Shown here: positions 55 through 35,861 of the stretch, piece by piece | Layout: the number at the start of each line of letters is the position of its first letter | Position numbering within the stretch: the stretch's first letter is position 1 | IMG/VR virus record: IMGVR_UViG_3300033273_000162 | Coordinates: 1 to 52,777 of that record | Length of the DNA stretch: 52,777 nucleotides | Direction: 5' to 3' (one strand) | DNA from: a virus | Notes under the pieces: generated by a model | The model's database searches: none | The model's input: only the letters and a program-made list of their open reading frames with translations | What the model was told of the DNA's origin: nothing | Translations under genes and position numbers: made by a program

Positions 55-855
55 TTATCCGATCATATCCATTGGTGGGATTGCATACTTGCTGAGAACT
101 TCGCTTTCGATTTTCTCAATTTCTGCTAGTGCGTCTGTGTATAGTTCTCTACCATTAAGAGTAATACCACCTGGCAACTGAACGTTGTTATACTTAATCA
201 AGTTTTGACCCCACTGCTTCTTCATGAGAGCAGTAGCATACTTCTTGACAAACATATCATTGTACATCTCAGTAGCATCTGTAGGATCGATAAGACGATG
301 ACACTCAATCAGGATGTTAGATCCTTCGTTGAGAAAGTCTTTGTCTAGATCCATATAGAGACGATCACGACGCATGGTGTATCTAAACTGCTGGAATGAT
401 CCATTGTTTAGGACCATATCCAGTGTCTCTAGATACTGCTTGTTCATATAATAGTTGAGGATATCAAGTGATCCGAATGCATAGAGATCATTCAAGAACA
501 GTTGATACTCAACACCAAAAAGATTGGAACGGATTGAGTTGCTGACAAGACCAAATACTCTAGTGATACCAACCACATGATCTGGGACTGGAATATAATT
601 TGTTGTTTCTTTCCAGTCAGTTGTGCCACTAGTTGTTGTTATGCTAGCAGCAAACCTTGTCTTATCGTCAGCAGTGATTTCATGGAATAGATATGCACGC
701 TCCATACCGTTGTAACAGTTCTCTTGGAAGAACTGAATGGTGTCATCAATAACGTTATTGACCTGTTCGTCATCGATATTAACTTGTAGGACAGGCTCAC
801 CAAGCTGTCTCTTACAATATGTGATGAGTTCAGCTCTTGAATTTGGAGATGCCAT
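55..855 (-). CDS. 13: Neck protein gp13
   Basis: This 266-residue protein begins MASPNSRAELITYCKRQLG and continues with a conserved region (VNIDDEQVNNVIDDTIQFF) typical of the gp13 head-completion/neck protein of T4-like cyanophages. With gp14 it forms the neck that seals the filled capsid and receives the tail. A longer frame is possible from a TTG four codons upstream. I chose the ATG at 855 because residues from MASPN match the family start and an AAGG-type ribosome-binding sequence lies about 13 bases upstream. That sequence is inside the 3' arm of a hairpin ending in six T residues, so translation may depend on where the mRNA starts. The neighbour downstream is gp14, as in other T4-like genomes. 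Confidence 0.9.
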   Translation of the reverse strand: MASPNSRAELITYCKRQLGEPVLQVNIDDEQVNNVIDDTIQFFQENCYNGMERAYLFHEITADDKTRFAASITTTSGTTDWKETTNYIPVPDHVVGITRVFGLVSNSIRSNLFGVEYQLFLNDLYAFGSLDILNYYMNKQYLETLDMVLNNGSFQQFRYTMRRDRLYMDLDKDFLNEGSNILIECHRLIDPTDATEMYNDMFVKKYATALMKKQWGQNLIKYNNVQLPGGITLNGRELYTDALAEIEKIESEVLSKYAIPPMDMIG

Positions 856-862
856 TACACAC

Positions 863-897
863 AAAAAATCCCTTCTTACCTATTTAGGAAGAAGGGG
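863..897 (-). promoter_or_regulatory. Hairpin with T-tract in the gp13 leader, burying the RBS
   Basis: On the minus strand CCCTTCTT (896-889) pairs with AAGAAGGG (877-870). An 11-base loop contains CCTAAATAGG, and ATTTTTT follows the stem. By form this is an intrinsic terminator, but it ends only eight bases before the gp13 ATG and its 3' arm carries the only plausible Shine-Dalgarno sequence (AAGG). It could terminate or block translation of read-through mRNA. A late-promoter-like CTAAATA lies in the loop, so mRNA started there would lack the 5' arm. Confidence 0.7.
881..887 (-). promoter_or_regulatory. Late-promoter-like element CTAAATA for gp13
   Basis: CTAAATA differs from the end of the T4 late consensus TATAAATA by one base and sits 26 bases upstream of the gp13 ATG, in the hairpin loop. 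The same variant precedes two other genes in this window (22532-22538 and 35839-35845). Confidence 0.4.
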
Positions 898-903
898 TTT
901 AGT

Positions 904-910
904 ATTTATT
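904..910 (-). promoter_or_regulatory. Putative T4-type late promoter upstream of gp13
   Basis: AATAAATA on the minus strand overlaps the TAA stop of the 63-residue gene and lies about 49 bases upstream of the gp13 start. It matches the T4 late consensus in seven of eight positions. Transcripts starting here would contain the whole leader hairpin, unlike ones started at 881-887. Confidence 0.45.
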
Positions 911-1097
911 CAGCAGGTGCAGGTTCTCCTTCTGGTGCGGCACCTTCTCCAGCAAGCAGACCTAGGGTTTCTAGTCCGCCTTCTAGTTTCAGTTTGTATT
1001 CCTGTGCCTTTGCAAGATTGGTTTGTAGTTCAGCAATTTGCTTTTCTGTAGTAGCAATTTGCTCCTCAAAGTTTTTCTTCAGTGTCTCTTGATCCAT
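906..1097 (-). CDS. Small acidic coiled-coil protein
   Basis: This 63-residue protein has a strongly helical, heptad-like core (residues 3-45, rich in E, K, Q, L) and an Ala/Pro/Glu-rich, probably disordered tail ending in APAE. A GAGG ribosome-binding site lies five bases before the ATG. It fits tightly between the U32-like/methyltransferase gene and gp13, so it is co-transcribed with them. I do not recognise a family. Similar short coiled-coil proteins are common among cyanophage late genes and may be minor structural or assembly factors, but nothing here proves that. Confidence 0.75.
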   Translation of the reverse strand: MDQETLKKNFEEQIATTEKQIAELQTNLAKAQEYKLKLEGGLETLGLLAGEGAAPEGEPAPAE

Positions 1098-1104
1098 AGT
1101 AACC

Positions 1105-2790
1105 TCAGCGTTTTTTAAGAATTAGAATATAGAGTCCATTCCACCAGCTTGTGGAATCTTCAAGTTCGGGAGTGAGAATTTGTCTCTCAAACAGAAGTTC
1201 AAGATTATTTATCTCAACAAAATTCTGCCCTGTTCGGATAACACCATCAAAGTTGGCATCATCTAATACTAACACAAACGTGTCCGCTAGTAAAGGGAGA
1301 AGATTATTCAGACAAGAAACTTGATTTTCATCATGGTCTCCATCGTAGAAAATAATGTTTGGTTTTCTATTGATATCATCCTCATTGATATCATTTGCGT
1401 CTTTGTCTAGCAAAGTAGATTTCAGACTGCCAAACATCATATTGTTTTTCATGAAAGATTGTTTTGGATCTTTCACCCCTTTCCAAATAATATCATCTCT
1501 AGCAGGTGCAATTTCATGCTCGAAATTATCAACAGCATATGAGTAGATATTGTTATTCATGATAGCAGCAAAGTAAGTGCTACCAGTGTATGATCCGATT
1601 TCTAGATATGTATTTCCAGGATCAGAACATAGATGATTGAGGAAATGTCTTACACGATGAGAAGACAATCCTTCAATATGATATCCATATTCAACAAAGT
1701 TTGTTTCACCTGTTGCAGAACGATCGATAGCATCAAGAGTTAGTTTGACTAAGGGATGCTCAATTCTATCTTGCTTACGATAGTGTGCGTCAATAACAGA
1801 CTCACAGTAGTTGCAATCCCAACAATCAAACTGACATGTCTTGATCTTTTCTCTCCAGATATCAATTGGTCTCTCATTGAGATCCTTGTCTTCCATATAA
1901 GCATTGAGTTCTGGGAACAATAACTCTTCGTCATTTGCCCACCTCTCAATGATATCCATACTCTCTTTGAGACGCATGACAGATTCTCTACCATGCATTT
2001 TGAAAACATCAATACCAAGATCAAACATCTCCTCCCAGTCCTTTTTCCAAGGTGGAAGATTTGCTGCTTTCAATGCTACGGAACTATCTTCATGTTCCCA
2101 CTTAGAACAAGAAACACGACTGATAATACTTCCAAAGTATGGAGGTTCGTGATTCTCTCTGGTGTTATTGTAATGGTAATGTTCTGGCATAATGGGACAA
2201 CCACCCCAACAACCTTCATTAGCAAGCATAGAGAACTTGACTGGTTTGCCGATAGAAGCACAATATTCTTTTGCTTCTTTCAAGCGACGCAACTGATCAT
2301 GATCACGCATCAAATCTCTATCAAGATTCACATAGTGGAATCCTGCTTTAGCAAGAGACACAATATCATTTGCTTTAGTAACCTCATGTAGAATCGTATT
2401 CTTGATATACAACTCAGGAAACTCTTTCTGAATCTGACCAGTCAATACCCATGAAGTATGTGGAATAGTAACCGTTCTAATACCAGCTTCATACAGATGT
2501 TTGAAGTTGGCAATCCACAAGTCAAGCAGTTCTTGTGATGGTCTTACGTAGATGTTATTAAACGTAGCAGACAGAGGAATGCCAGTTTGTTTTTGAACAT
2601 AGATGGCATTGTATGTTGTTTGACGTAAATCATCTTCAAATACATCTCCCATTGCATCCTGCATGAATGGTGGCATTCTGCATGTAAAATACAAATCGAA
2701 GATATAATCCTTATGCTTTTTCAAGAAAGGAATCAGATGCTCATTAGCAAACTGCTCATCAATTTTTGGATTGATTGGAAGACTAAACAT
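1105..2790 (-). CDS. U32-like TIM-barrel Fe-S protein fused to a methyltransferase-fold domain
   Basis: Residues 1-340 look like a peptidase U32/UbiU-type TIM barrel, with strands such as RTVTIPHTSW (105-114) and HYVNLDRD (152-159). The Cys pattern NEGCWGGCP (C194, C198) plus C228 resembles the 4Fe-4S ligands of U32 proteins, which act in oxygen-independent hydroxylation of ubiquinone precursors or RNA rather than proteolysis. A second group, C319, C323, C326 and C329 (CX3CX2CX2C), may add a fourth ligand or bind a second metal. Residues 385-560 resemble a class I SAM-dependent methyltransferase: glycine-rich loop YLEIGSYTGSTY (395-406), acidic AVDNF (419-423) and FYDGDHDENQV (481-491). The start overlaps the upstream oxygenase stop as TAATG, so the two are coupled. 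The substrate is unknown. A radical-SAM reading is less likely because no clear CX3CX2C occurs near the N-terminus. Confidence 0.6.
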   Translation of the reverse strand: MFSLPINPKIDEQFANEHLIPFLKKHKDYIFDLYFTCRMPPFMQDAMGDVFEDDLRQTTYNAIYVQKQTGIPLSATFNNIYVRPSQELLDLWIANFKHLYEAGIRTVTIPHTSWVLTGQIQKEFPELYIKNTILHEVTKANDIVSLAKAGFHYVNLDRDLMRDHDQLRRLKEAKEYCASIGKPVKFSMLANEGCWGGCPIMPEHYHYNNTRENHEPPYFGSIISRVSCSKWEHEDSSVALKAANLPPWKKDWEEMFDLGIDVFKMHGRESVMRLKESMDIIERWANDEELLFPELNAYMEDKDLNERPIDIWREKIKTCQFDCWDCNYCESVIDAHYRKQDRIEHPLVKLTLDAIDRSATGETNFVEYGYHIEGLSSHRVRHFLNHLCSDPGNTYLEIGSYTGSTYFAAIMNNNIYSYAVDNFEHEIAPARDDIIWKGVKDPKQSFMKNNMMFGSLKSTLLDKDANDINEDDINRKPNIIFYDGDHDENQVSCLNNLLPLLADTFVLVLDDANFDGVIRTGQNFVEINNLELLFERQILTPELEDSTSWWNGLYILILKKR

Positions 2791-3521
2791 TAGTATAACC
2801 TGAAGAAGTGATCTGGATTTCTCTTTCTATCTGGAGCATTGTACAAAGACTCTTCTGTCAAAATGTCAATACCAAGTGTAACACGTTCCACATCAGACTG
2901 GTGTTCTGTAGTCCAATGCACAACATATTCTGGAAATAAAGTTAGGGTTCCAACTTCATTCTCAAGCGCAGCAGAATTCATAGTATATGGATCCTGATAG
3001 ACTGTGCTTGTGCCGCTGACCTGCAGAGATAGATTTCCAGAAAGAAAACTCCATCCATCTCCGCTGTGTTGATGAGGATTAATCTTCTGACCTTTCCTCA
3101 TTACATTTGCCCAGCATTGCGCCCATGGTTTAAGTTCCATGACATTTGCGCCAACATGATGACACAACTCCGCAATTGCATAATGCAATTCAATTTTTAA
3201 TTTTCTTACAACATAGTTCTCATCATAGTCATCCCACTTGAGGATGTTGTATGCTGGAAACTTTGCAGTCATACTGTCTGGTCCCAAACCTGTGCCACCA
3301 TCATACATTAAATGGGGGTTGAGTTTGATAATACTCTCTTCTTTTTCTAGAATAGTCTTTGTCAGATATTTTGCTTCTTGCTCAATAAGAATCTGACTAT
3401 TCCAAAATGGAATAGAATAAACTGGAGCAAATGGCGTATGCTTTTCTTTGTTGCCAAACAGTTCTTTAATTCTGTCTTCTGCTGTTTCTGGTTCAACCCA
3501 GGCATTTGGATCGCTATTCAT
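2790..3521 (-). CDS. 2OG-Fe(II) oxygenase, HxH type (first of three)
   Basis: This 243-residue protein carries the jelly-roll signature of the 2OG-FeII_Oxy_5-like family. HQH at H150/H152 sits in INPHQHSGDGWSFLSG, followed by GTLTLFPEYVVHWT with H202 and a distal R213 for 2-oxoglutarate binding. These enzymes use Fe(II), oxygen and 2-oxoglutarate to hydroxylate or otherwise oxidise a substrate; here the substrate is unknown. A TTG would give five more residues, but I chose the ATG at 3521. It overlaps the upstream stop as ATGAATAG and has a GGGTG sequence just before it. It is one of four oxygenase-like genes surrounding the halogenase. Confidence 0.8.
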   Translation of the reverse strand: MNSDPNAWVEPETAEDRIKELFGNKEKHTPFAPVYSIPFWNSQILIEQEAKYLTKTILEKEESIIKLNPHLMYDGGTGLGPDSMTAKFPAYNILKWDDYDENYVVRKLKIELHYAIAELCHHVGANVMELKPWAQCWANVMRKGQKINPHQHSGDGWSFLSGNLSLQVSGTSTVYQDPYTMNSAALENEVGTLTLFPEYVVHWTTEHQSDVERVTLGIDILTEESLYNAPDRKRNPDHFFRLY

Positions 3522-4176
3522 AATCACCCATCCCAATCATACTGTATCTATCTTCATCCACATACCAGTTTTCTAAAATCCATGGTGAGTGGAAGAAACC
3601 TCCATTGTAAAACAATAATGTATTATACTCCATTGGAGCGATGCAAGACAACTCCCAGTCTTCGTCCCCTCTGAAGTTCTTCCATTGTTCATAACCAGTC
3701 TCTTTGATTGTTTTATCAAAGAGATAACTGTTTTCCTCTTCTGTCAATTCATTGACATGTATCTTACCTTTGTAAGACCAGAAAGCAGTTCCACCCAAAC
3801 ATTGTTTATTGAACCAGATATTCCAAACACCTGGCCAAGCATCTGAATGTGGTAAGTGTGCATTCTTTTTCATCTGCATGTTGCCGTTGTAGATATTACA
3901 AGACACTCTTGCAGGATTCCAGTTGCATACATTATCACGAACAAAGTTAGCAATAAACTTCGCTGCCCATGGTGGAACATCTTGTCTCCATCCAGGAGAA
4001 TATGTACTATCCCTAACAGCAGGAAAATTCAAGAGAAGTTCTTTGTATTCTTCTGGATACTTGAGAAAGTTTTTAATTACTTTAAATTTTGTTCCATCGT
4101 AGATTGCATCTTCTACTTTAGCATCATCATTTATCTGACATATAGATGAAAGATAATCATTATCAAATCGCTTCAT
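3514..4176 (-). CDS. DUF6445-type putative 2OG-oxygenase-like protein
   Basis: The 220-residue protein has LPHSDAWPGVWNIWFN with an HxD pair (H110, D112), then GGTAFWS (128-134) and a later FFHSPW with H196 and R210. This order (HxD, GGT, distal H and R) is that of a non-haem Fe(II)/2OG oxygenase fold and resembles DUF6445 proteins, which in bacteria are often encoded beside tryptophan halogenases. Here too the halogenase is nearby, separated only by another oxygenase gene. The start overlaps the upstream stop as ATGA, showing translational coupling. Its reaction is not known; acting on the same substrate as the halogenase is an inference from context. Confidence 0.65.
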   Translation of the reverse strand: MKRFDNDYLSSICQINDDAKVEDAIYDGTKFKVIKNFLKYPEEYKELLLNFPAVRDSTYSPGWRQDVPPWAAKFIANFVRDNVCNWNPARVSCNIYNGNMQMKKNAHLPHSDAWPGVWNIWFNKQCLGGTAFWSYKGKIHVNELTEEENSYLFDKTIKETGYEQWKNFRGDEDWELSCIAPMEYNTLLFYNGGFFHSPWILENWYVDEDRYSMIGMGDYE

Positions 4177-4838
4177 TGTCTTTCAATTCTGAAACTGTAG
4201 GAGTGGTTATAGATGTAACGTGGCATCACATTGAATGAAATTGAAATTCTGTTGTCTTCTTTATTATCAATATATCCATGAGATATGTTTGACTGCCAAA
4301 GAAGAAGATCGCCTTCTGTATAATCTACATGTGCTCCCCATGTATTATACTTTGTTGGATATTTGATGGGTATATCAATAGTCTGCATAACAGAGTTTTC
4401 TGGATTGAAGTCTTTGTTCTTGAATCCAATAGGAGCATGTAATCCTTTGATGAAATTTACATAGTAAGTTCCAGACACATATGCATTTGCATGTGTGTGA
4501 TTAAACTGCTCTCCACCAGCATCACATTTATTGAGCCAGCAATCAGTGACGATCATTTCTCCCTTGAGTTCATACCCAAGAACGTTCTCAACATAGTCAA
4601 GAGACTTTTCTGTAATCCACTCTTCAAACCACTTGAATTCTGGAATGTCAAGTAAATTCATATTATCTCTGTTAAAATAGTGCGCCAATGCACCATTATC
4701 AACATTTACTTTCTTGATCTTTTCGTCTTCATCAACTTGGTGCAGAAGACCGAAACACTGATCTTTAAGTTTTTGAGTTCTTTCATCGTCTAGTCTATAT
4801 TTCCCAATCGCTCTTGGGAAGATTTCAATTACTGCCAT
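4173..4838 (-). CDS. 2OG-Fe(II) oxygenase, HxH type (second)
   Basis: This 221-residue protein shows the core signature of the 2OG-FeII_Oxy_5-like family: HTHANAYVSGTYYVNF with H114 and H116, then GDLLLWQSNISHGY with H187, and NRISISFNVMP with R197. The SGTYYV and ISISFN segments are the usual strands flanking the metal and cosubstrate sites, so it is probably catalytically competent. It overlaps the 3' end of the halogenase gene by 14 bases and in turn overlaps the DUF6445-type gene by ATGA. The gene order suggests that halogenase and oxygenases are made together. Confidence 0.85.
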   Translation of the reverse strand: MAVIEIFPRAIGKYRLDDERTQKLKDQCFGLLHQVDEDEKIKKVNVDNGALAHYFNRDNMNLLDIPEFKWFEEWITEKSLDYVENVLGYELKGEMIVTDCWLNKCDAGGEQFNHTHANAYVSGTYYVNFIKGLHAPIGFKNKDFNPENSVMQTIDIPIKYPTKYNTWGAHVDYTEGDLLLWQSNISHGYIDNKEDNRISISFNVMPRYIYNHSYSFRIERQ

Positions 4839-6366
4839 AAATGTTTGCTCTCAAGTAGTCATACAGAGACAGAGAATTGTTTGCTATGTTCTGCCACTTT
4901 GATCTTATAGAGTTATTTATTGACACAAAATTATCGATCATTTTCTTCTTATCTACTTGCGGGAAGTCCCATTCCCACTGAGACATAACTACTGGATCGA
5001 TCATTCTATAGTCCATTCCTGCACAAATGCAATGCACTCCCACTGGAGGGTGATCTTCAACAATGTCTTGTCTTCTAGCAAGATCATAGAACTGAGAAGA
5101 TGTTGGTCTTTGCATTACCATGTCTTCATCAAATGTTTTGTTGTGAATATCTTTCCAGTATGATGTATCTATCCTGAGTGAAAGGGTGTAGTGAAATGCT
5201 ACAAAATGTGCGAAGCGATCGAACATTTTTCGTGTTGTGAAGTTATAAACATCACGATCCCATTGGTTATATTCACCACGATTCAATGCTCTCACTAGTT
5301 TGAGCAAAAACTCATGAACTGTATATAATCCACTGCTCTGTAGAGGTTCGATAAAACCTGCTGCCATACCAATCCCAACAACATTCTTTACCCATGTTCT
5401 CTCGTGGATACCAACACGCATCTTGATATCTTTGAATTCAACTTCACCACAATCACCAAGATAATTTTTGAAGTCTTCTAATGCTTGCTCTGGTGAAATA
5501 GAGTTGTCGTCATAGACATAACCCGTACCAATACGAGACCACAGAGGAATATTCCATACCCATCCATGACCGATTGCTGTGCATGTTGTGTATGGTTCTA
5601 GTTGTTCCTTCTTATTCTTATATGGAATCTTAGTTGCCCACGCACGATTGTTTGGAATAATATCGTTGTAGGAAATAAAAGGTTCCTCTAGTTCATTGAG
5701 AAGCAACGCTTTGTTGCCTGTGCAATCAATAAACAGATCTGCAGGGATAAATCTTTCGTTATTTACAAAAACTCTCTCAACACCATCTTCTCCTGTATCG
5801 ATAGATGTTATTGATGCTTGAATATGTTTTACTCCACGAGGAATGCAATAGTGATCTCTGAGATACAAACCAAACTTCACACCATCAAAATGGTATGCAG
5901 TATCTCTTTCAAATTTGTAATTCTCTAGATCTGTTCCTGTGTATATTTTGTTATCTTCAATGCAAGGCATTGTAGAATAAAACGTCCTACAATAATCTTG
6001 TCTTGGTGTGCCAGGATATAAATGCTTCTTCAGTTGCCAATCATTCAATCCTAGAAATTTCTTTTCGTAAAATGGATGACCTAGTGGATTGTGAAATCCA
6101 CCATCATCAATCTTATAGAAATCAACAAACTTAATGCTCTGCTTGTATGATGCATCGCAATACTTCATGAAGTCTTTTTCTTTGATACCCAAAGCAAACA
6201 TCCATGGACGGATACCTGCCAGCGTACTTTCTCCTACACCAGAGATAGGATGATCGGGACTTTCAATAAGTGTGATCTGTTTTTCTGGAAAAAAATGGAT
6301 GAGCGTTGCAGCACTCATCCATCCAGCAGAACCACCACCAACAATAACGATGCGATCAAACTTCAT
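4825..6366 (-). CDS. Flavin-dependent halogenase, VirX1/tryptophan-halogenase type
   Basis: The 513-residue protein opens with a Rossmann FAD-binding motif (VGGGSAGWMSA, residues 9-19). It has the halogenase signature GWVWNIP (268-274) and a lysine at the usual HOX-binding position in ASYKQSIKF (K75), as in PrnA and RebH. Flavin halogenases oxidise chloride, bromide or iodide with FADH2 and O2 and transfer it to an activated aromatic carbon. The cyanophage Syn10 enzyme VirX1 is a characterised iodinating member, and this gene is probably its relative. In PrnA/RebH a catalytic glutamate lies in PLESTG; here the aligned segment is EPLQSSG, so Gln343 replaces Glu. No flavin reductase gene is nearby, so host reductase is presumably used. 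The start overlaps the upstream oxygenase stop as ATGA. Confidence 0.88.
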   Translation of the reverse strand: MKFDRIVIVGGGSAGWMSAATLIHFFPEKQITLIESPDHPISGVGESTLAGIRPWMFALGIKEKDFMKYCDASYKQSIKFVDFYKIDDGGFHNPLGHPFYEKKFLGLNDWQLKKHLYPGTPRQDYCRTFYSTMPCIEDNKIYTGTDLENYKFERDTAYHFDGVKFGLYLRDHYCIPRGVKHIQASITSIDTGEDGVERVFVNNERFIPADLFIDCTGNKALLLNELEEPFISYNDIIPNNRAWATKIPYKNKKEQLEPYTTCTAIGHGWVWNIPLWSRIGTGYVYDDNSISPEQALEDFKNYLGDCGEVEFKDIKMRVGIHERTWVKNVVGIGMAAGFIEPLQSSGLYTVHEFLLKLVRALNRGEYNQWDRDVYNFTTRKMFDRFAHFVAFHYTLSLRIDTSYWKDIHNKTFDEDMVMQRPTSSQFYDLARRQDIVEDHPPVGVHCICAGMDYRMIDPVVMSQWEWDFPQVDKKKMIDNFVSINNSIRSKWQNIANNSLSLYDYLRANIYGSN

Positions 6367-7106
6367 AATACTGTCAATCTGTTCAGTGAATTTGGGAAAC
6401 CTAGACTTCCTCTGAAGAATAGGTTGAATGAAATACTAAATCTAGTCTCTTCTGTATTTTCATTTGGAACTGTATCATGCTCTAACCAAGATGGAAAGAT
6501 CAAACACATACCCTTTTTGGGTTTCATATAGATCTCACCTGAGTTTAATTCATTTCTACCTTCCACTTTAGGCATGTAGAAGAATTTCATTCTAGTTGGA
6601 TCAATGAATCTGATATAGTTTGAAAGAGAATTCTCTGCAACATGTGGAGGATCCTCTGGATACCAAACTCCAGCAAACATAGCATTGCTATGGGAGTGTG
6701 GGTGAATGTATCCACTGTGTCCTAGGACATTTCCCCACATAGTTTCCATGTGTGGTTCAATATCAATATATGCATATGCATTGAAAACACTAGAAGCAAT
6801 ATCAAGAATACTATTCTTTAATTCAGAGTAAATAGGATTCTCGTGCAAAGTATCTTCTGTGTAGAAAGAAACTTTATTTTTTTCTAGTTTTCTTTCATCA
6901 TCACCAGGAAGAACATAATCCCCAATTGACTTCGTTACTTGATAGTCTGGTGCTTGACTGTATTTTTCTTTTAGATCATTAATAATTTCATCTGTGTTTG
7001 AAACAGAAATGCTACTTTCAAATATAGGTGTTGGAAAGGTATGATGAATTGTCTTCAATTCGGTCTTTGGTTGCTCAACCGAATAGTCCCAAAAGTTTTG
7101 ATTCAT
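6363..7106 (-). CDS. 2OG-Fe(II) oxygenase, HxH type (third)
   Basis: The 247-residue protein has SGYIHPHSHSNAMFAGVWY with H135, H137 and H139, then GMCLIFPSWLEHDTVP with H210, and TRFSISFN with R222. This is an almost textbook 2OG-FeII_Oxy_5 pattern (HxH, FPSWLxH, RxSISFN). It is the first gene of the enzymatic island in transcription order and ends in an ATGA overlap with the halogenase. An AAGAG ribosome-binding sequence lies upstream of the ATG. Homologues are frequent in marine cyanophages, usually of unknown substrate; prolyl hydroxylation of proteins has been suggested for relatives but cannot be read from the sequence. Confidence 0.88.
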   Translation of the reverse strand: MNQNFWDYSVEQPKTELKTIHHTFPTPIFESSISVSNTDEIINDLKEKYSQAPDYQVTKSIGDYVLPGDDERKLEKNKVSFYTEDTLHENPIYSELKNSILDIASSVFNAYAYIDIEPHMETMWGNVLGHSGYIHPHSHSNAMFAGVWYPEDPPHVAENSLSNYIRFIDPTRMKFFYMPKVEGRNELNSGEIYMKPKKGMCLIFPSWLEHDTVPNENTEETRFSISFNLFFRGSLGFPNSLNRLTVL

Positions 7107-7112
7107 AATATA

Positions 7113-7877
7113 TCACTCTTGTCCAGTAATAAGTGGATTATCTCCCTTCTTAGTTCCACTCACAATTCCTTGTAGTGAAGTTAGTAGTTTAACTTGCATC
7201 TTCTCTTCGATGCCCTCAAACGTTGGTAATCTGAGATTGTTATCATCTGCAAGAAGATGTTTGGTATATTCTCTTGTCTTGCCTTCAATCTTAGCAAGCT
7301 GACCTCCAAGTAGATTGGAGTATTGGAAACCGATAGAAAGAACTTGTAGTTGTTGTTCTTCTGGCAGCATAGAGATAGAGTCTAGATTTCCTACACTGAT
7401 TCTACCAAACGATAGAATGTCCATCGCTGCTTGTTTGCCCATACGAGCAACCCAATACTTCTCCTCTTCTTCAGGATCACCGTCAAAGTAACGAGCAATG
7501 TCTTCCTCGTTCTCTACACAGTCTTGAATCTTTTTGATGAAGATATCTAATTCCTGTTCTGCTCTTGCAATTTTTCTTTGTCTAATTTCCTGATCGACCT
7601 CAATATCCTCTACGTCAATCTGCCAAAGTTCTGCTTCTAGTGGATCTTCGCACTCTGCGATATCCTTGCGAAGTTTTCTCAACTTAACATCATCTCGTCT
7701 TACGTCAAGCTTGATCTTTCTGATACCATGATATCGGTTCTCGATCTCAAGCAGAGCCTGACGAATTTGGCGAAACCCAGTGACATGAGAATTCATGACA
7801 AAGTGTTCGTTCTGATAATCAGTCTGTCCAGTTGCAAATTTAATCGCGTTACTAAGGATCTGCTCCTTACTTAACAT
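7113..7877 (-). CDS. Unrecognised helical protein with coiled coil
   Basis: The 254-residue product begins MLSKEQILSNAIKFATG. Residues about 40-115 are highly charged and heptad-like, predicting a long coiled coil, followed by an acidic patch (DGDPEEEEK) and a more globular C-terminal half. The frame can be extended four codons to a TTG, but a strong GGAGG sits five bases upstream of the ATG at 7877 and fixes the start there. I do not recognise a named family. Its place between the fibre genes and the oxygenase/halogenase island, in the late operon, would suit a virion or assembly protein. It could instead be a partner of the island enzymes. Confidence 0.75.
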   Translation of the reverse strand: MLSKEQILSNAIKFATGQTDYQNEHFVMNSHVTGFRQIRQALLEIENRYHGIRKIKLDVRRDDVKLRKLRKDIAECEDPLEAELWQIDVEDIEVDQEIRQRKIARAEQELDIFIKKIQDCVENEEDIARYFDGDPEEEEKYWVARMGKQAAMDILSFGRISVGNLDSISMLPEEQQLQVLSIGFQYSNLLGGQLAKIEGKTREYTKHLLADDNNLRLPTFEGIEEKMQVKLLTSLQGIVSGTKKGDNPLITGQE

Positions 7878-7899
7878 AATAACCTCCAAAGATTAATAA

Positions 7900-8727
7900 T
7901 TAAAATTGAAATCCTACTTTAACGGGTACTACTCTCTCGAATTCGACAACTCTTCCTTCTTCCATTGCTTGCTGTTCAGGCATTGCAACACCGAGGTAGT
8001 CCTCGTACAATCTATTTAGTTCCTTAATAGAAGAGGCAATTTTGAACTTATACTTGACTGCATTCATCTGCTTCATGATATCAATGACCTGATCTTTGTA
8101 CTTCTTCCTTCCAGATAGAACCATATTGACCATATCACCAAGAAGAACGTTTCTTGCACGAGCCATTTCATATAAGAGAGGACACTCTGCTTTTTCGTTC
8201 TCTCTGTATGCTTTTGCTTCTTCATACTGAAGTTCAAATGTCAATGCTTCCATTGTAGAAGCGGTGTCTAGAAGCATAAATCTCTTATCAAATTCTTCTT
8301 CAATGACTGCTTTGGCAACTAGTTTCATTGCTTTAATGACACATTGAGTTCTATGTTCATCCATAGGAACTGCAATTTTTTTACCTTCATCGGAATCTGG
8401 TGCTAGAGCAATACCTTCAGAATCAAACGCAACTAACTCACCCTCAATTTCTTGCTTAAGAACTTTTGTTTCTGGTCTGATATCAGCAAAAGATTTGAAT
8501 CCTTTAAACGCTACATCGCGCTCGATTGGGTAATACTTTCCTATTACGTTGGTAGAAAAAATTACAAATTCCGACTCGGGAATAGAAACAGCATACCAAT
8601 CCATGTTGGCATACAACACTCTGAGATCGTGAATGCTGTTTGACAGACGGATATCTTTTGTTAAAAAGTATAGTCTCTTTAACTTTGTAATAGGTGCGGG
8701 ATAGTTTGTTTCCATTGAGTTTTCCAT
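7900..8727 (-). CDS. Unrecognised 275-residue protein
   Basis: The protein starts MENSMETNYPAPITKLKRLY and is mixed alpha/beta in its first 120 residues, then mostly helical with many E, K and M residues (about 125-250). No signal peptide, transmembrane segment or catalytic motif is visible. The ATG overlaps the stop codon of the 704-residue fibre gene as TAATG, so translation is coupled to the fibre. A second ATG four codons later is an alternative start. The coupling suggests a fibre chaperone, hinge or other small virion component, but that is only inferred from position. Confidence 0.7.
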   Translation of the reverse strand: MENSMETNYPAPITKLKRLYFLTKDIRLSNSIHDLRVLYANMDWYAVSIPESEFVIFSTNVIGKYYPIERDVAFKGFKSFADIRPETKVLKQEIEGELVAFDSEGIALAPDSDEGKKIAVPMDEHRTQCVIKAMKLVAKAVIEEEFDKRFMLLDTASTMEALTFELQYEEAKAYRENEKAECPLLYEMARARNVLLGDMVNMVLSGRKKYKDQVIDIMKQMNAVKYKFKIASSIKELNRLYEDYLGVAMPEQQAMEEGRVVEFERVVPVKVGFQF

Positions 8728-10841
8728 TAGTAGCTACCGATGCCTCCGTCAGATGCAGAGGAGTCTGCAAGACCTTCACCTGCGTAGTCACCGTAGATAG
8801 TATTACCATATGCCATAACACCAGGAGCAGACTTATAGGTATTGCCAGTATATGTCATGTATGTTCTTGGTGTTACACCAGCACCCATCATGTCTCCTCC
8901 TGGTTGTCCTGTTCCAGAAGACGCTCCTGGGATACCCTTACGATAAGTTAGAGTGCCATCCGCAAATCTGATGGCATCTTGATAGTAGAAGAAAATCCAA
9001 GCGTTGTTGTTCTGTGCTCCGTTGTAGTTTGAAATACTATATCCTTTGTTCATTCCAGTGTGCATGTTTTCTTCACCACCATTTTCTGGTTTAGACATGC
9101 CACTTCTCAAGATAACAGCATCATTGTCTCTTCTCTTGGTAACGTTTCTGTTGGTATTACCAGCTTCTGAACAATAGAAGAATCCAATTCTAGTTGCAAG
9201 GTGTTTGTTAAATCCGTCATTACCAGGAGCAGGAGAATAATTACTCCAAGAAGAATAACTTTCATTAGAGAATGCAAATCTATGCTGCCCAGAAGAAACC
9301 CAAGAGTAGTATTCACCTTCTGCGTGTGATACGTGATTGACGTTACCACCAACTTCAGAAAGCATTGACTCTGTATTCAAGTCATGACGAGATGTGTTAC
9401 CATTGTTAGAGGTAATGTATGCTCTGTTTCTACCTCCATTTGTTCTCCACTGGTTACCCATGAAATCTTGCCATGCTCCAGAGTATCTTCTTGCTCTAGT
9501 ATCATTCCAAGAAGAGTTCTGACCTCTGTTAGTTTCAGTAACCATACTGAAAGAACATGTGGTTGCATCATTGGGCAACCAGGAGTTAGCGCAGTTATAA
9601 ACAAACAAATTGACACCATTGTGAGAACCGCCAATGTATGCTGCAGTTCTGTCGATGATATCACCTAGAGAGATAGTGACATCAGATGGGTGAGAAGTTC
9701 TGTTTCCATTTCTCCATGGAGCAGCATTCTTATATCCAGCAACTGTGTATCCTCTGTTGATGATATAACGGAATGGATATTGATCTGGGTTCTCTAGTCT
9801 GTAGTTTGCGTCTAGATCGTGTGTCCAGTAGGCGACATACTTAGAACCATCCCATCTTGTTCTTAGAACAGAACCGTCTGTTTGTGCATTCTGTTCTGGA
9901 AGAGTTTCGAATGCGGATCCATTCTGATATAGTTCTCCAGTAAAATTAACATTACCGTTAATGTTTAAAGCATAAGAACCATTTGTATTGCCTTTTATAC
10001 CAACATTACCGCCAGTATCCAATTGCAATGCTAGTGTTCCAGCGTCATTTCCACCACCAGTGTAGAAATCTAGACCAGTACCACCAGTTCTAAATCTTGC
10101 ATTATGTCCGTTTGCTAGAGGACAAATCCAAACAAAGTCTGTATTATCATTATTTTGAATCATCAATGCTGGTGACCAAGATGATGGATATGATCCAAAA
10201 CTGATTAGACCTTGACCTCTATTGTAGATTGTTAATTGTCTAGTGCCACCGCTAGTGCCATCTGTTGCAACACTAAATCTACTAATTGGTTTTTCATATA
10301 CTCCAGTATATCCACCAGATGGTTGCAACACTAAATTGTAAGCATTACCATTATTTTGGTGACGTGATTGTAACCAAGTATATTGAGGAGATGTATTTGA
10401 CTGAACACCAATATTTAAATGGATACCAGTTCCTCTAGATCCAATAACCATCGATCCATTTGGATTTGATGATAGTGAATTTGGATCTTCTCCGCCATTT
10501 GTTCTTCCAAATACTTGGAGTGGAACATTATCATTTCCTACTTGTCTGTTGCTTTCTCCAACAGAAGTTGTTCCTGTAAATGGGGTGAGGTTAGTAAATC
10601 CAGTTGCATCAACTGAAATCATTGGTGCTCCTGAAATATCAGTAGCAGCAAAAGTGGTTCCAGAAGAAATGTTATCGTCTATCGAGAATAACTGTCCACT
10701 ATTTCCTTCAAAAGAAAGACTATTATCATCGAGCACACGAAGCTTAATCGGTGAATTATCTTGACCGACAAAACTAATTTCTGGTATATTTCCTGTGCCT
10801 TTATGCGGCGTTATAAGGATATCCTTATCAGAATTCGCCAT
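8727..10841 (-). CDS. Tail fibre-like structural protein, 704 residues
   Basis: The N-terminal segment EISFVGQDNSPIKLRVLDDNSLSFEG (residues 22-47) resembles the attachment module seen at the start of many cyanophage fibre and virion proteins. The middle (about 120-320) is rich in Asn, Gly, Thr and Ser with short beta repeats such as LQLDTGGNVGIKGNTNGSYALNINGNV, the usual fibre-shaft pattern. The C-terminal 370 residues form an aromatic- and Gly/Asn-rich globular part with several WN/NN segments, probably the receptor-binding tip. It has its own late promoter (10864-10871) and an AAAGGG sequence before the ATG. Host binding is an inference from architecture and from the LamG-like neighbours. 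Confidence 0.75.
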   Translation of the reverse strand: MANSDKDILITPHKGTGNIPEISFVGQDNSPIKLRVLDDNSLSFEGNSGQLFSIDDNISSGTTFAATDISGAPMISVDATGFTNLTPFTGTTSVGESNRQVGNDNVPLQVFGRTNGGEDPNSLSSNPNGSMVIGSRGTGIHLNIGVQSNTSPQYTWLQSRHQNNGNAYNLVLQPSGGYTGVYEKPISRFSVATDGTSGGTRQLTIYNRGQGLISFGSYPSSWSPALMIQNNDNTDFVWICPLANGHNARFRTGGTGLDFYTGGGNDAGTLALQLDTGGNVGIKGNTNGSYALNINGNVNFTGELYQNGSAFETLPEQNAQTDGSVLRTRWDGSKYVAYWTHDLDANYRLENPDQYPFRYIINRGYTVAGYKNAAPWRNGNRTSHPSDVTISLGDIIDRTAAYIGGSHNGVNLFVYNCANSWLPNDATTCSFSMVTETNRGQNSSWNDTRARRYSGAWQDFMGNQWRTNGGRNRAYITSNNGNTSRHDLNTESMLSEVGGNVNHVSHAEGEYYSWVSSGQHRFAFSNESYSSWSNYSPAPGNDGFNKHLATRIGFFYCSEAGNTNRNVTKRRDNDAVILRSGMSKPENGGEENMHTGMNKGYSISNYNGAQNNNAWIFFYYQDAIRFADGTLTYRKGIPGASSGTGQPGGDMMGAGVTPRTYMTYTGNTYKSAPGVMAYGNTIYGDYAGEGLADSSASDGGIGSY

Positions 10842-10863: not shown

Positions 10864-10871
10864 TATTTATA
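10864..10871 (-). promoter_or_regulatory. T4-type late promoter TATAAATA for the 704-residue fibre gene
   Basis: The minus strand carries an exact TATAAATA 22 bases upstream of the fibre ATG, in a 40-base intergenic gap. This is the consensus element read by the T4-type late sigma factor gp55 with its sliding-clamp coactivator. Confidence 0.75.
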
Positions 10872-12356: not shown

Positions 12357-15300
12357 TCAACCCTCCTCTTCTACTGATAGTTCGACTTCAACCTCTAGTG
12401 GATCGATATCCTTACGGGTTCCTTGGACGAAGTAGAAGGATTCTCCTCCACCAATGAAGATCTTATTATCTTCAATCTTCTCAACCCATGCATGATGATC
12501 ACCGATTGGAGTGAGTTGAACTGTGATGCTGTCCTCATCAACGAGAGCAGTCCAGTATTCTGGAAGTTCAACAACATCACTTGCCTTACCACGAACATAG
12601 ACGCCATGCTCAGGACCTTCAAGAGATCCATAACGTAGTTCGTGATTTTCCTTAGTTGGGTGAGGAATTACGAACGACTTGCTGGTAGCACCAAACGAAC
12701 CATTTACATAAAGTTTGTAACTGGTGTTTGTGTTGCTCTGGTTGATCGCAACGTTCTGACTTGCGTCCATGACAAGGGCAGTTGGACCGCCATTTGTCTT
12801 GAAGTGCCACTTGCGATTACCATCAATACGCTCGACGATATCACCAACTGCAGTTCCAGGACCATAGTTGCCTGCGCTATTACAATATGCCATTCTATAA
12901 CCAATAGTAGTGCTACCATTTTTGTGAATGATAGAACTATAACCACCAGATTGACCTGCAATGGTAATACCATCACTATTATCTGCAGGAAGATCAAATC
13001 TAGATGTTCTATTATTGAATACGCGGAAGATACTCGTAGTAAAGTTAGTGTTATAAACACCTAAGAGTTCAGTACCAGTTGTACTATTTGTAGTAGAGAA
13101 CCTTGCGTTCCAGGAAGAACCAGATCCTCTAAACTGAAGACCACCAGCAAAAGTAAAGTATTTGTTGCTAGCAGAAACGTTGATTGCATTATCAACAGAT
13201 GGATTTAAAGTCAGCGTACCAGTCATGGTATCGCCAGACTTCAATACGTTGAGAGAAGCAGCACCAGTTAGATTACCGCTGATTGTTCCTGCAGTGAAGT
13301 TGCCATTGGCATCACGAAGAACAGCGGTATTTGCTACATTGTTGCTAGCAAATGTAATGTTACCAGCGTTCCAAATAACTTGGTTGTTGATTGTGAAGTT
13401 ATTTGCTCCACCAACCTGAACGTTAAGTGATCCAGATCCAGTTCCAGCATTACCACCAGAAGCAAAGATACCAGCGTTATAAGAAGCAGCAGATGTGGAA
13501 GAGTTGAACAGAACTGCAGGAGTAGAAGCAGTTCCATCCTTTCTTCCAAGTCTCAAGTATGCAGTACCGCCATTACTTTCTAACTTAGCAACATCATATG
13601 TTCCAGTTTCATTGATCCAGAACTCTTGGAATGTAACTCTGTTACCAGCAGTACCAATAGTCTCTGCGGTATTAAATGTACCAGTGTTCAGGTAACCAGT
13701 GATCTGAGTCCAGTTAAGGCTGGTATCACCATCTGGAGATGTGAATGGATTGACATTCAGAATGACAATAGTACCAACACCCTGTGCGTTTGCATCATAT
13801 AGATTGACGGTTTGACCGTTCAGGAATGGAGTGGTAGTTAGTGCTTGTCCAGAAATATAGATGTCATAGTAGGTCTTGTTTGTTACCTGCTTGATTGTAA
13901 TTGCGTTTTGGAATTTCTTCTCGGACAAATATCCATTAATTCTGGTATCACTGATTTGATAGAAGTTAATGTTTCTAGCATCCTGATACCAAGCACCTTG
14001 TCTGTTATCAAGTTTGTCAGAGTCCATTCCAGTACCAGGACCATCGGACAATTGAGTCCAGACCTTATACCAGTTAGACCAAGTTGCAACACCAGTTCCA
14101 CTACCACGTAACCAAACATTATTATTGTCTGTAAATGCAAGTTGTCTTACACCACCATCAGCAGTAGCATCACTACCCTTACCTCTAATGGTCATGACTG
14201 CGTTAGCAGTACCACCATCAGCAAGAACGTTTGCGCTATTGTTGATGAAATTGACAACCGCACCTTCAGAGAAGGTATCTGGAGTAGGATCTGATGTTGG
14301 GTTGGATGTTTGAGATCTTAGTCTTAGTGTATTACCAGACTGTCCAGAAATATTAATATCATAAGAACCAGATAGTCTTAGTTTGTTCAGAGTACCAGAA
14401 GTTATGTTGAATGCATTCTGATAGAATGCGCCCTGCTGACCATCAAGTAAGTCAGCATCAAGACCACTTTGAGATCCTGTCTTCAGTTCAACAGATCCAT
14501 TGCCAACCAATCCAATATTGAATTGAGACTTCTTGAACTTAGCAACACCAACCGTTCCATATGCGTCACCAGAAGTTGTGTTTTCTGTTACTCTCAGGAT
14601 ATCCATTTGGATATCACCAAATCCTCTAATAGCAGTATTAACTTTAGCAGATAGGTTACCAGCAGTTGTTGGATTTCCTAGTGCAGGAGGAATTGTAATA
14701 GCAAAGTCATTCTGGAATCCAGAACCACCAGAAGTAACTACAACACTATCGATAGTTCCATTTCCATCAGTTGTGAAATTAGCATAGAGTCCAGTGCCAG
14801 TACCGCCTTGGATAGGTCCAACATTCTTGAGATCAAGGTTTGCTGTGTATCCAGATCCACCGCTGATGATAACAATATCATCAATGTACTCGTTCTTAGT
14901 ATTATTGGTATCAATAATAATTGGTGGTTCGGGTCTATCAAACTGTAAGAACGTTCCTGCAGGAATTGCTTGAGTCAGTGGATTGTTAATCTCAATTTCA
15001 ATATATCCTGTTTTATCAGTAATCGAACTGACAGTTGTGTTTGGATCAATACCACTATTGGTAGAAGATACTGTATGTCCAACTAAAATATTAGTTCTAG
15101 CAGAAACAGGGAAAGTTAGTTTGTTTCCGCTATTTGCAGCGGCAAGGAATGTTGCTTCGAAGTATCTCTGCTCAGCACCCTTGATCGTTTGAACAGCAGG
15201 AGAATATGTCTGATCACCACGTAGGAAAGTGAAGGAGTTTGCAGCATCCGAGTCGAATGCTAGTCTTGCTGTTGCAATAACACCAGATGTAATATCACCT

Positions 15301-18300
15301 GCTGCAACTTGGTTAGAAGATAGGGATACCCAGTTGAGATCATCGAATGCAGAGGTATTAACAACTCTGTTCAAATTAACAGTTACCGAATTGACATCAT
15401 CAATCGTATCTGTATCTACAATCTTAATGTTATTAACAATGTCACCATATAGTCTGCTCTCAATCAGTGCGTTAGCAGTTGCTTGAGTTCCACCACCAGG
15501 AGGTGCAGAGAATGTGATAGTTGGTGCAGAAGTATAACCATAACCACCTGTGTAACCGTTAGATTCGATGATAGTTACTGTGACAACTTGACCATTTGCA
15601 ATAGTACAAGTCGCTGCAGCGGTAACACCTGTAGATGGCGAAGTAATCGATACAGTTGGAGCTGAAGTATATCCAGAACCAGAATCTGTAATCGAGATAG
15701 AATATACAACACCTTGGCGATATTCTGTGGTCTGAATAGTACCACCGCTATTACTTCCAGTGTAAATGCTTCCAACAGCACCAAAGTCCAGTGCGGCATT
15801 TACAGTGATTCCTAGATATAGACTATCAACATCATTGTCTAGGATATAAGATGCTGCAGGGACAGGTGGATTTGCATTAGGATTTCCCTCAACAATTGCA
15901 ATGTCACCAGCAAGAGCACCCTCTAGTTTCAGTCTTTCTGCATCACTTGCAACAGTGAAGACACTGAATGGTCTGAGTGCTGGAATCTGGTCGATAGAAA
16001 TCTTACCAGAATCAGTAAGTTCAACCAGTGCTCTAGGAACTGGGTTCGTAGAATATGCTTTGTTGATGTATGGACCGAGATTGTTGGTAATATAATCCTT
16101 AACTGCTTTCTGTGTTGGTAGAACACTATTGCTAGATGTTGCACCACCCAAAGTATTGTCATCACTAAATCCAGTAACAACAATGTCACCACCTTTCAGT
16201 TTCAAGAATTCAACTTCAGAGATGGTAACCGTACCAGTAAAGGTAATTGCACCAGTTCTGTTCTCAATCTTAGCGAAGTAACCAACCTTGAAGTCACCTA
16301 GTTCGTCAGTACCAGAAGTATAAACACGACCGTAGTTTTCAGATACCTGCTCATTTGCTTCGATCTTAGTACCGCCGTTTTCTGGTAGTGCATTGTAGTC
16401 AGTACCTGCACCAGCAAATTCCCAAGTGTGGGAAGAACTATTAACAATAGATGGTCTGTGTAGTCTTACAGTAGCACCACTAAATGTTCCTAGGTCTGTA
16501 TTGACAACATTGTTAGTTGATTTATCTCTGAATACTGCTGCCTGATTGACAGTAAATGTTGCAGTGAATGGAGGACCAGAAGTTACATTATTGACACTAT
16601 CAATAAAGTAATCTACTGCAGAGTTCTCGCTCTCATATCCATCAATCTTGAGAATGTAGTGCTCTAGAGGTTCTCTTCCAAGACCACTAACTGTAAATTC
16701 AGTGAATCCTGTACCAGTTGCGGAACCAATTCCAGTGATGTTACCAACGTCGAATGGATACTCTTCTGCTCTATATCCTTTCGCTCTAAGAGCAAATGTA
16801 CCAAAGTTGGTAGCGGAGTTAGTAACAGATGCGTATCCACCACTGTCACAGAAGATACCATCTTGACAGAAGATAACGAAGACCGAAACCAACTGAGTGT
16901 AACCATCATTGACAACCTTGTAACCTGTACCACCAAAGGAAACAATCGTGAATGCCGAAGCAACCATCGATTTGCCCTGTGCTGGGTTAGAAACAGATCC
17001 ATCTTCCTCAATACCTGGGAATGGAACGTTTGGTTTAGCACACTTGTTACCATCGATTTCACAACCATTACCACCCTTGAAGGAGATAATAGAAGAGTTC
17101 TGAATGTATGGAGATGCCTCAATGTATGGTAGATCATCCCATACACCTCTAGGTGTGATATACTTGTTATCTGCGTCGTATAGAATTGCCTGTGTAGGTC
17201 TGTTTGGTGTTGGATCATACAGAGTTCCGTATGTCTGAGTTACACTGCCTCCCGCTAGAATGTCATCTAGAGTCTGGAACGAAGTTGTAATTGCAGTTGC
17301 GACATCGGAACATGCAGGGGATTGACCTTGACCATATACAGAAACTGCTTCTGCAACTTCTGTTCTTACAAACGTATGTACAGACTGTGGTAGGTGCTTA
17401 ACTGCATTTGTTGAAGCAGTAATAAAAGTATGTGTTGTTTGTGGTTCATGCTTGATAGCATTCTGTGCTGCAGCAACAAAAGTATGAGTGGAAGTATCGC
17501 TAGAAGTACCAACGTTAATTGTAAATGTTCCGTCTTGACGCTCAATAGCATTTGCCGCAGCACTTACAAATGTATGTGCTCCAGTGTAGGAAGAAGGACC
17601 AACATTAACATCAAACGTGTTTGGTGTTACGTTAGAAATTTGTAACCAGCGACCAGATGGATAATCATAACCAGCACGAGGATATGTCTTCTGAACACTG
17701 TTGTCATCTAACTCACATGTATAAGTCAAAGATCCATCAGCAACCTTGACATAATCACCATTGCTGAATCCATGATTAGTAACAGTAAATGTTACAATGC
17801 CTGTAGATGCATCATATGGTGCATTTGTTGGTGTATGTTGAGTTGAACCAACGGAAGTGATAGCAATAGACTGACCTGCATAAGGATCAGTTCCAGGACG
17901 AGGATATGTGTGAGTGGAATTATTTCCATCTAAAGCACATGTGAAGGAGAATGAGTTGTCTGTGAGTACAACACTACGTCCAACACCTAGACCATGCTGT
18001 CCTACTGTGACAGTCATGTCACCAGTAATAGGATTGTATGTAGCAGCAGATGGAGTGAAATACTTATTGGGACCAGAGGCACCAACATTTAAAGTAATAG
18101 TTGTATCAGTTTTTGCTGTGATAGGAATAGATCTACCAGCATAAGGATCAATACCAGGACGTGGATATGTCTTCTGCGACTGGTTGTTATCCATGTCACA
18201 GGTGAATGTCAGTGAATTGTCAGCAAGTACAATTCCCTCATCAATATCCAGTGTATGAGTTCCGATTGTTAGTACAAGATCTCCAGTTGCTGGGTCATAT

Positions 18301-27515: not shown

Positions 27516-27708
27516 TTTTGATTAACTCGTGCAGTAGTGCCTTGATTTCAGAGATTTCTTCCTTCAAGTTATTTATGTCTTCTATAGCAGTGGTGAGGTT
27601 CTTTGATTTTTTCCTCGCTTCAATTGCGGAGCTATCGTTATTAATGATAGCTCCTGTGTTCATGTCTCTTACAAGACCATCATATCCTTTTACTTTCGCG
27701 AAATCCAT
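27502..27708 (-). CDS. Small coiled-coil virion protein, 68 residues
   Basis: The sequence opens MDFAKVKGYDGLVRDMNTGAI, with a short beta-type head (GLVRDMNTGAIINND) and then a coiled coil, LTTAIEDINNLKEEISEIKALLHELI (about 39-64). Very similar small proteins are encoded near the baseplate genes of many T4-like phages. The start overlaps the DUF4815-type gene stop as TAATG and its 3' end overlaps the next gene, so it is embedded in the operon. Its role is unknown; a trimeric or dimeric linker is a plausible guess. Confidence 0.7.
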   Translation of the reverse strand: MDFAKVKGYDGLVRDMNTGAIINNDSSAIEARKKSKNLTTAIEDINNLKEEISEIKALLHELIKNGNS

Positions 27709-35804: not shown

Positions 35805-35807
35805 TGT

Positions 35808-35851
35808 ACTCCGCCAAATACTAGTATCTAGTCCCTAGTATTTAGCGGAGT
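35808..35851 (-). promoter_or_regulatory. 17-bp leader hairpin burying the RBS of the DUF4815-type gene
   Basis: The two 17-base arms (35851-35835 and 35824-35808) pair fully apart from one T-G wobble, around a 10-base loop. The 3' arm includes GGCGGAGT, the only Shine-Dalgarno sequence, three bases before the ATG. The 5' arm contains the late-promoter-like CTAAATA. No T-run follows on the minus strand, so it is not an intrinsic terminator. Confidence 0.8.
35839..35845 (-). promoter_or_regulatory. Late-promoter-like CTAAATA in the 5' arm of the hairpin
   Basis: If used as a T4-type late promoter, transcription would start about six bases downstream, inside the loop, so the mRNA would lack the 5' arm and the Shine-Dalgarno sequence would be free. 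The element is one mismatch from the late consensus. Confidence 0.4.
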
Positions 35852-35861
35852 AAAAAAGAAA

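Follow-up and report, generated by a model that had tools for sequence, protein, structure and literature searches.

The window analysed here, meaning the whole 52.8-kb record IMGVR_UViG_3300033273_000162 (52,777 nucleotides) of an uncultivated T4-like cyanomyovirus, a virus of cyanobacteria, carries nearly all its long genes on the minus strand, and between positions 1105 and 7106 it holds an island of six genes: a flavin-dependent halogenase (HAL), three oxygenases of the PF13759 family (OX1 to OX3), a DUF6445 protein, and a fusion of a U32-like barrel with a methyltransferase (U32-MT). In the best-supported reading of the sequence, the island would serve to modify a virion protein late in infection, most probably the fibre made along with it, with the halogenase as an optional add-on. 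A first-pass annotation of the same DNA had taken the six genes for a single pathway; as one obligate pathway they were rejected, because gene content varies among relatives and in whole genomes, the halogenase is optional and U32-MT mostly occurs without it. On the evidence of gene order, U32-MT belongs to a fibre module as the constant partner of one fibre type, whereas OX1-HAL-OX2-DUF6445-OX3 behaves as an exchangeable haplotype that is neither fixed nor inseparable. The genes concerned are, in order of transcription:

8727–10841, minus strand: fibre-like protein of 704 amino acids (T4-GC351, “sericin 1 precursor-like”; phrog_1417), with a conserved C-terminal domain at about 290–674; candidate substrate.
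7900–8727, minus strand: p1604, 275 amino acids, in the T4-GC352 position (phrog_10301/1604).
7113–7889, minus strand: GC353, 258 amino acids (T4-GC353; phrog_1409).
6363–7106, minus strand: OX1, PF13759/TIGR02466 oxygenase; OX1, OX2 and OX3 score 70.5, 56.1 and 35.5 bits in Pfam against a cut-off of 27, with a conserved HxH...H...R.
4825–6366, minus strand: HAL, predicted flavin-dependent halogenase (PF04820, E 2.5e-96) with GGGSAGW, K75, WVWNIP and E340.
4173–4838, minus strand: OX2, PF13759 oxygenase by Pfam, whose tree sets halogenase-bearing alleles apart.
3514–4176, minus strand: DUF6445 protein (PF20043), predicted 2-oxoglutarate (2OG)-Fe(II) oxygenase with invariant H110-x-D112...H196...R210.
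2790–3536, minus strand: OX3, PF13759 oxygenase, covarying with HAL in the window's clade.
1105–2790, minus strand: U32-MT (T4-GC354, phrog_1458 at E 5e-231), which also matches Methyltransf_24 weakly.

All six island open reading frames are present where the first-pass annotation had placed them. They are intact genes under strong purifying selection and not chance frames, since the ratio of nonsynonymous to synonymous substitution rates (dN/dS) between the window and the related contig L016 is 0.03–0.06 in each of the six, as low as in gp13. The ATGA or TAATG overlaps described for most junctions are seen at three of them, namely two 4-nt ATGA overlaps at 6363–6366 (OX1/HAL) and 4173–4176 (OX2/DUF6445) and a 1-nt TAATG overlap between OX3 and U32-MT. 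The other two are longer: HAL and OX2 overlap by 14 nt, and DUF6445 and OX3 by 23 nt with the listed TTG start, or by about 8 nt if the start is the ATG at 3521. Island junctions range from a 23-nt overlap to a 7-nt gap, and the genes on either side of the island are spaced about as tightly, with 6 nt to GC353 above (and on up to p1604) and 7 nt to p580 below.

The constancy of the fibre module emerges from gene orders called on 80 viral contigs with the U32-MT fusion and 80 with halogenases. Contig scans with the window HAL or GC353 alone returned 4 and 2 loci, respectively, and a halogenase alignment was needed as query. The backbone reads fibre - p1604 - GC353 - [slot A] - U32-MT - [slot B] - p580 - gp13, and fibre, p1604 and GC353 were present in 32/32 fusion loci that extend 6 kb upstream. 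Phage records gave nearly identical organism tallies for U32-MT (123), GC353 (123) and the fibre C-terminal domain (125); two of the 125 fibre-domain records lie beyond the common set, and the one seen, from S-SKS1, matches a short N-terminal stretch only. Among 53 loci with both slots bounded, at least one oxygenase lies beside the fusion in 48, and a halogenase in 3. Whole genomes separate the fusion from the halogenase in both directions: S-CAM4, P-SSM4 and P-HM2 carry U32-MT without a halogenase, S-ShM2 carries U32-MT with a short halogenase elsewhere in its genome, and Syn9, S-RIM44, S-CREM1 and Sf-CH11 carry halogenases without U32-MT. Both are found together, with the halogenase in slot A, in the window and in contigs L016, L017 and L020–L022.

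Within the window's clade, slot A holds either OX1-HAL(-HAL)-OX2-DUF6445-OX3 or OX1-OX2-DUF6445. The block appears real because HAL and OX3 covary (6/6 versus 0/6, P 0.002, near-copies included) and OX2 alleles are coupled to the halogenase, all halogenase-bearing alleles falling in one OX2 clade (94/96) apart from those of halogenase-less relatives, whereas flanking genes follow other trees. On the U32-MT tree the presence of the halogenase needs at least three changes. Exchange is visible between contigs L022 and L025, which share 4.6 kb beginning with the fusion at 99.3% DNA identity; all that lies upstream differs, and the breakpoint falls where the fusion gene starts. The halogenase can apparently also be replaced alone, its synonymous divergence (dS) between L021 and L022 being 0.27 against 1.0–1.6 for its block neighbours. 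Search of other phage genomes for the same gene set therefore divides the earlier expectation: the set varies among relatives, yet HAL, OX2, DUF6445 and OX3 still travel together, and U32-MT stands separate from them.

Late co-expression of the island, as first proposed, is supported by promoter sequence. The motif [AC]TAAATA is the core of T4-type late promoters. Over the whole window it occurs 14 times on the coding (minus) strand and not once on the plus strand, and 8 of the 14 sites lie in the intergenic 1.66% of the DNA, 16–54 bp ahead of structural genes (binomial P 1.6e-11). Two of these promoters bracket the stretch from the fibre gene to gp13, and no intergenic [AC]TAAATA was found between them, which places the island in the middle of a single unit with the supported order fibre - p1604 - GC353 - OX1 - HAL - OX2 - DUF6445 - OX3 - U32-MT - p580. 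A scan for sigma-70 promoters gave no excess over shuffled sequences. The features that bound the unit are:

10864–10871, minus strand: T4-type late promoter TATAAATA, 22 bp ahead of the fibre-like gene; the unit presumably starts here.
906–1097, minus strand: p580, 63 amino acids, last gene of the unit (phrog_580).
866–905, minus strand: terminator-like hairpin with the late promoter CTAAATA (881–887) inside; predicted end of the unit and start of the gp13 unit.
55–864, minus strand: gp13 neck protein, head-tail adaptor Ad2, in the next unit (phrog_211, E 1e-46).

CTAAATA copies sit inside inverted-repeat, terminator-like hairpins between structural units both at 865–905 and at 35805–35861, so that a terminator and the next promoter overlap. 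The structural region also encodes three very large proteins, at 12357–22490, 27708–35804 and 37741–48000 (3377, 2698 and 3419 amino acids).

What the enzymes would act on is a matter of graded likelihood. The first-pass annotation had named either a virion protein or a small molecule; the coupling of U32-MT to the fibre and the position in the operon favour the virion protein, and the small molecule is a serious rival. We tentatively prefer, somewhat short of an even chance, to read the region as a fibre module expressed late and holding an exchangeable chemistry block, with enzymes that would act during virion assembly on a virion protein made at the same time. The most likely target would be the conserved, tyrosine-rich C-terminal part of the fibre. 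The fusion may hydroxylate an aromatic side chain and follow this with O-methylation, the oxygenases may hydroxylate side chains, and the halogenase may place bromine, chlorine or iodine on an activated aromatic ring, such that the receptor-binding fibre would differ from phage to phage in its surface or its stability. A more specific version, a covalent decoration of receptor-binding fibres in two layers, with the fusion as a constant, fibre-specific hydroxylase/O-methyltransferase and the oxygenase/halogenase block as a swappable part altering fibre chemistry, is doubtful. Glycine-rich fibre-like genes are enriched in the five genes upstream of phage halogenases (36/235 versus 29/555, P 7e-6). 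Polyglycine-rich fibre-like proteins of the PF21722 type were also observed just ahead of halogenase/oxygenase genes in unrelated marine phages (L002, L007, L009, L102, L117, L123, L137, L148, L165 and L175), and may be regarded as candidate substrates.

Several points weigh against a fibre substrate. No modified residue or product is known, and similarity of fold gives no substrate. The halogenase haplotype is unlinked to the fibre allele, the fibre tree forcing two changes, and a tie between the two was therefore rejected. No halogenase-specific aromatic site was found in fibre, p1604 or GC353 when halogenase-bearing phages were set against the others; none was found in U32-MT either. Halogenases also occur away from fibres, in S-B64 among recombination genes and in S-MbCM6 beside psbA. 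The glycine-rich association is weak when counted per locus (21/60 versus 9/56, P 0.03) and falls short of significance outside cyanomyoviruses (P 0.2). Moreover, the 123 records of the fusion are mostly S-RIM2 and S-RIM12 isolates and represent few independent lineages, and the record lists were compared by tallies and not one by one. Since the haplotype is unlinked to the fibre allele and the halogenase lies elsewhere in some phages, a virion substrate is better supported in the case of the fusion than in that of the halogenase.

These same two observations speak for the tailoring of a small molecule, in which the block would modify a host metabolite (an indole, phenol, quinone or pigment derivative) and the product would be released at lysis or act on the host. 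VirX1, the characterised cyanophage relative of HAL, has an active site that is large and open and accepts many small aromatics for halogenation in vitro (PMC8407142), which is in keeping with such a role, but promiscuity in vitro gives no native substrate. The late position among structural genes argues against it, and no core biosynthetic enzyme was recognised among the genes of the unit. We consider this reading unlikely, though the foremost of the alternatives.

Somewhat less probable is a hotspot at which the slots before and after the fusion gather oxygenase and halogenase genes independently, each with a function of its own and without forming a pathway. Slot contents that vary from none to seven genes, the more recent exchange of the halogenase than of its neighbours between L021 and L022, and the 10–24 oxygenases of phages such as Syn9, S-CREM1 and S-SCSM1 would all suit it. 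It has to contend, however, with the covariation of HAL and OX3, the coupling of OX2 alleles, and the strong proximity of halogenases and oxygenases across unrelated phages as compared with bacteria. A PF13759 or DUF6445 oxygenase lies within five genes of a viral halogenase in 56/79 loci, against 2/80 loci for a PF13759-type oxygenase near a bacterial halogenase; the two samples were collected differently, and the large contrast alone is used. Bacterial halogenases adjoin TonB receptors and SapC, with DUF6445 in 5/80 loci.

The earlier description of U32-MT as a “U32-like Fe-S/methyltransferase fusion” holds for the fold of both halves. Structure models predict that a U32-like TIM barrel is joined, in an unusual fusion, to a catechol-O-methyltransferase (COMT)-type domain: residues 1–274 match the U32 peptidase structure 5d88 (Z 15.9 over 222 residues, root-mean-square deviation 3.3; predicted template-modelling score of the model 0.57) and residues 356–561 match COMT-type O-methyltransferases (COMT, TomG and TrmR, Z 15–16.5). 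The list of structure matches was filled by the methyltransferase half, and other barrel families were barely covered. Methyltransf_24 is found in 38/42 members, the window protein scoring just under the cut-off, and a search of solved-structure sequences returned no match. By sequence the U32 label fails. U32-MT has no U32 Pfam match, its profile similarity to the four Escherichia coli members UbiU, UbiV, TrhP and RlhA reaches an hhalign probability of 3.5%, and it lacks the Cys-x6-Cys that is essential in TrhP (C170, C177), its cysteines being spaced otherwise; membership of the U32 family by sequence was hence rejected, and likeness of fold alone is claimed. Seven cysteines are shared by all of 42 relatives, in a Cx3C (194, 198), C228 and a Cx3Cx2Cx2C (319, 323, 326, 329), from which we infer that an iron-sulphur cluster may be present. 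The Cx3Cx2C (C319, C323, C326) after the barrel resembles that of radical S-adenosylmethionine enzymes, an unusual place for that family.

This architecture raises the possibility of RNA modification, in which U32-MT would make a methoxy-pyrimidine in tRNA or rRNA, as TrhP and TrmR together lead to 5-methoxyuridine, and the halogenase block would be unrelated. RNA hydroxylation requires the U32 proteins TrhP and RlhA, and 5-hydroxyuridine (ho5U) is methylated by TrmR (PMC6599085). The match of the barrel to 5d88 fits, as does that of the C-terminal half to TrmR (5zw3, Z 16.2), one among many O-methyltransferases. Nonetheless, the want of profile similarity to the E. coli proteins, the different cysteine spacing and the obligate partnership with a fibre gene make it improbable. 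A drawdown of 2OG, which Sullivan et al. 2010 (PMC3037559) proposed for cyanophages and which was repeated for S-SCSM1, would have the oxygenases mainly shift the 2OG level and the transcription driven by NtcA. It is very improbable, as expression is late by promoter, the many oxygenases diverge in sequence but keep their catalytic residues, which points to distinct substrates, and the halogenase and the fusion are left unexplained.

Returning to the late tailoring of a fibre, the enzymes it calls for appear intact. HAL matches PF04820 at 323.7 bits (cut-off 21) over residues 5–415, with GGGSAGW at 10–16 and WVWNIP, and K75 and E340 are invariant in 13 phage proteins. Accordingly, by its sequence HAL is a flavin-dependent halogenase with intact catalytic residues and predicted activity. 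VirX1 is its closest solved structure, so the earlier label “VirX1-type” is understandable but loose: HAL is about 36% identical to the VirX1-type copy of Syn9, 51% to the Sf-CH11 protein and 45% to that of S-B64, and orthology with VirX1 was rejected. On contig L021 (3885–7011) the same slot holds a tandem pair of halogenase genes, the extra copy being about 35% identical to the window HAL.

Where three 2OG-Fe(II) oxygenases and a DUF6445-type protein had been described, four oxygenases are predicted. OX1 to OX3 are of the PF13759 family; in place of the canonical HxD/E...H iron triad, which they lack, they have HxH...H...R, a pattern common to the whole family (H in 97–100% and R in 95% of 172–243 relatives), and their use of iron and 2OG is inferred from family and fold. 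The DUF6445 protein is by its sequence and model a fourth such oxygenase with a double-stranded beta-helix fold, because HxD...H...R is invariant and its model finds 2OG oxygenases first. H110, D112, H196 and R210 are invariant in 19 sequences, and each is at 100% in 35. The model (predicted local distance difference test score 82) has 2OG oxygenases as its top PDB matches (E 5e-5 to 1e-3, template-modelling score about 0.45), which range over protein hydroxylases and other 2OG enzymes (Tpa1, mimivirus lysyl hydroxylase, PHD2). Phage records name the DUF6445 family “minor coat protein”. In the clusters of L003, L010 and L012 (Syn9, S-ShM2), oxygenase-like proteins are labelled “DNA endonuclease V”, “ferrochelatase” or “minor coat protein”; a number of these either score as 2OG oxygenases or have such enzymes as neighbours.

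Cyanophage halogenases and oxygenases are already well known (PMC3037559, PMC2984593, PMC9964418, PMC9602691, PMC8407142), and published guesses on their role are antibiotic synthesis or 2OG drawdown. New here are the modular structure, the U32-MT fusion and its pairing with a fibre. In the literature searched, of which coverage was incomplete, we found no earlier statement of any of the three and no link of halogenases to phage fibres. With an exchangeable late block, and with a previously unrecognised fusion as the constant partner of one fibre type, the question of the native substrate of cyanophage halogenases (VirX1) and 2OG oxygenases can be put directly to a named protein domain, for which the cultured phages S-ShM2, P-SSM4, P-HM2 and S-RIM2 are at hand. 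If decoration of fibres is true, it would be a native role for phage halogenases and, to our knowledge, give the first known halogenated or hydroxylated phage fibre. Chemical diversification of fibres, if it occurs, would add to host-range evolution a layer that protein sequences do not show.

Finally, the island can be placed beside known systems. VirX1 of cyanophage Syn10 (PDB 6QGM) shares with HAL the PF04820 fold family, the catalytic Lys and Glu, the flavin motifs and a cyanophage origin, and the VirX1 group (Syn9/Syn10) likewise has its halogenase beside oxygenases, but HAL is nearer to the Sf-CH11 and S-B64 proteins. The clusters of Syn9, S-CREM1, S-RIM44 and Sf-CH11 lie downstream of fibre genes, sometimes before gp13, and comprise one or more halogenases with several oxygenases (PF13759, PF13640, JmjC and DUF6445) behind them; unlike the window, they are without the fusion. 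Bacterial neighbourhoods (TonB receptor, SapC, DUF6445) resemble the window in placing a halogenase near DUF6445, whereas PF13759 is almost absent. The slot before T4-GC354 in S-ShM2 and S-RIM14 has the same OX1-OX2-DUF6445-OX3 order between GC353 and the fusion; however, no halogenase is in the slot, and petE and gnd stand between block and fusion. As for the U32 proteins TrhP, RlhA, UbiU and UbiV and the O-methyltransferase TrmR, a U32-like barrel and a COMT-type methyltransferase would parallel hydroxylation followed by O-methylation, as may be the case in U32-MT; yet apart from its dissimilar profile and cysteine pattern, U32-MT has both halves fused in one protein, and that protein is tied to a fibre gene.

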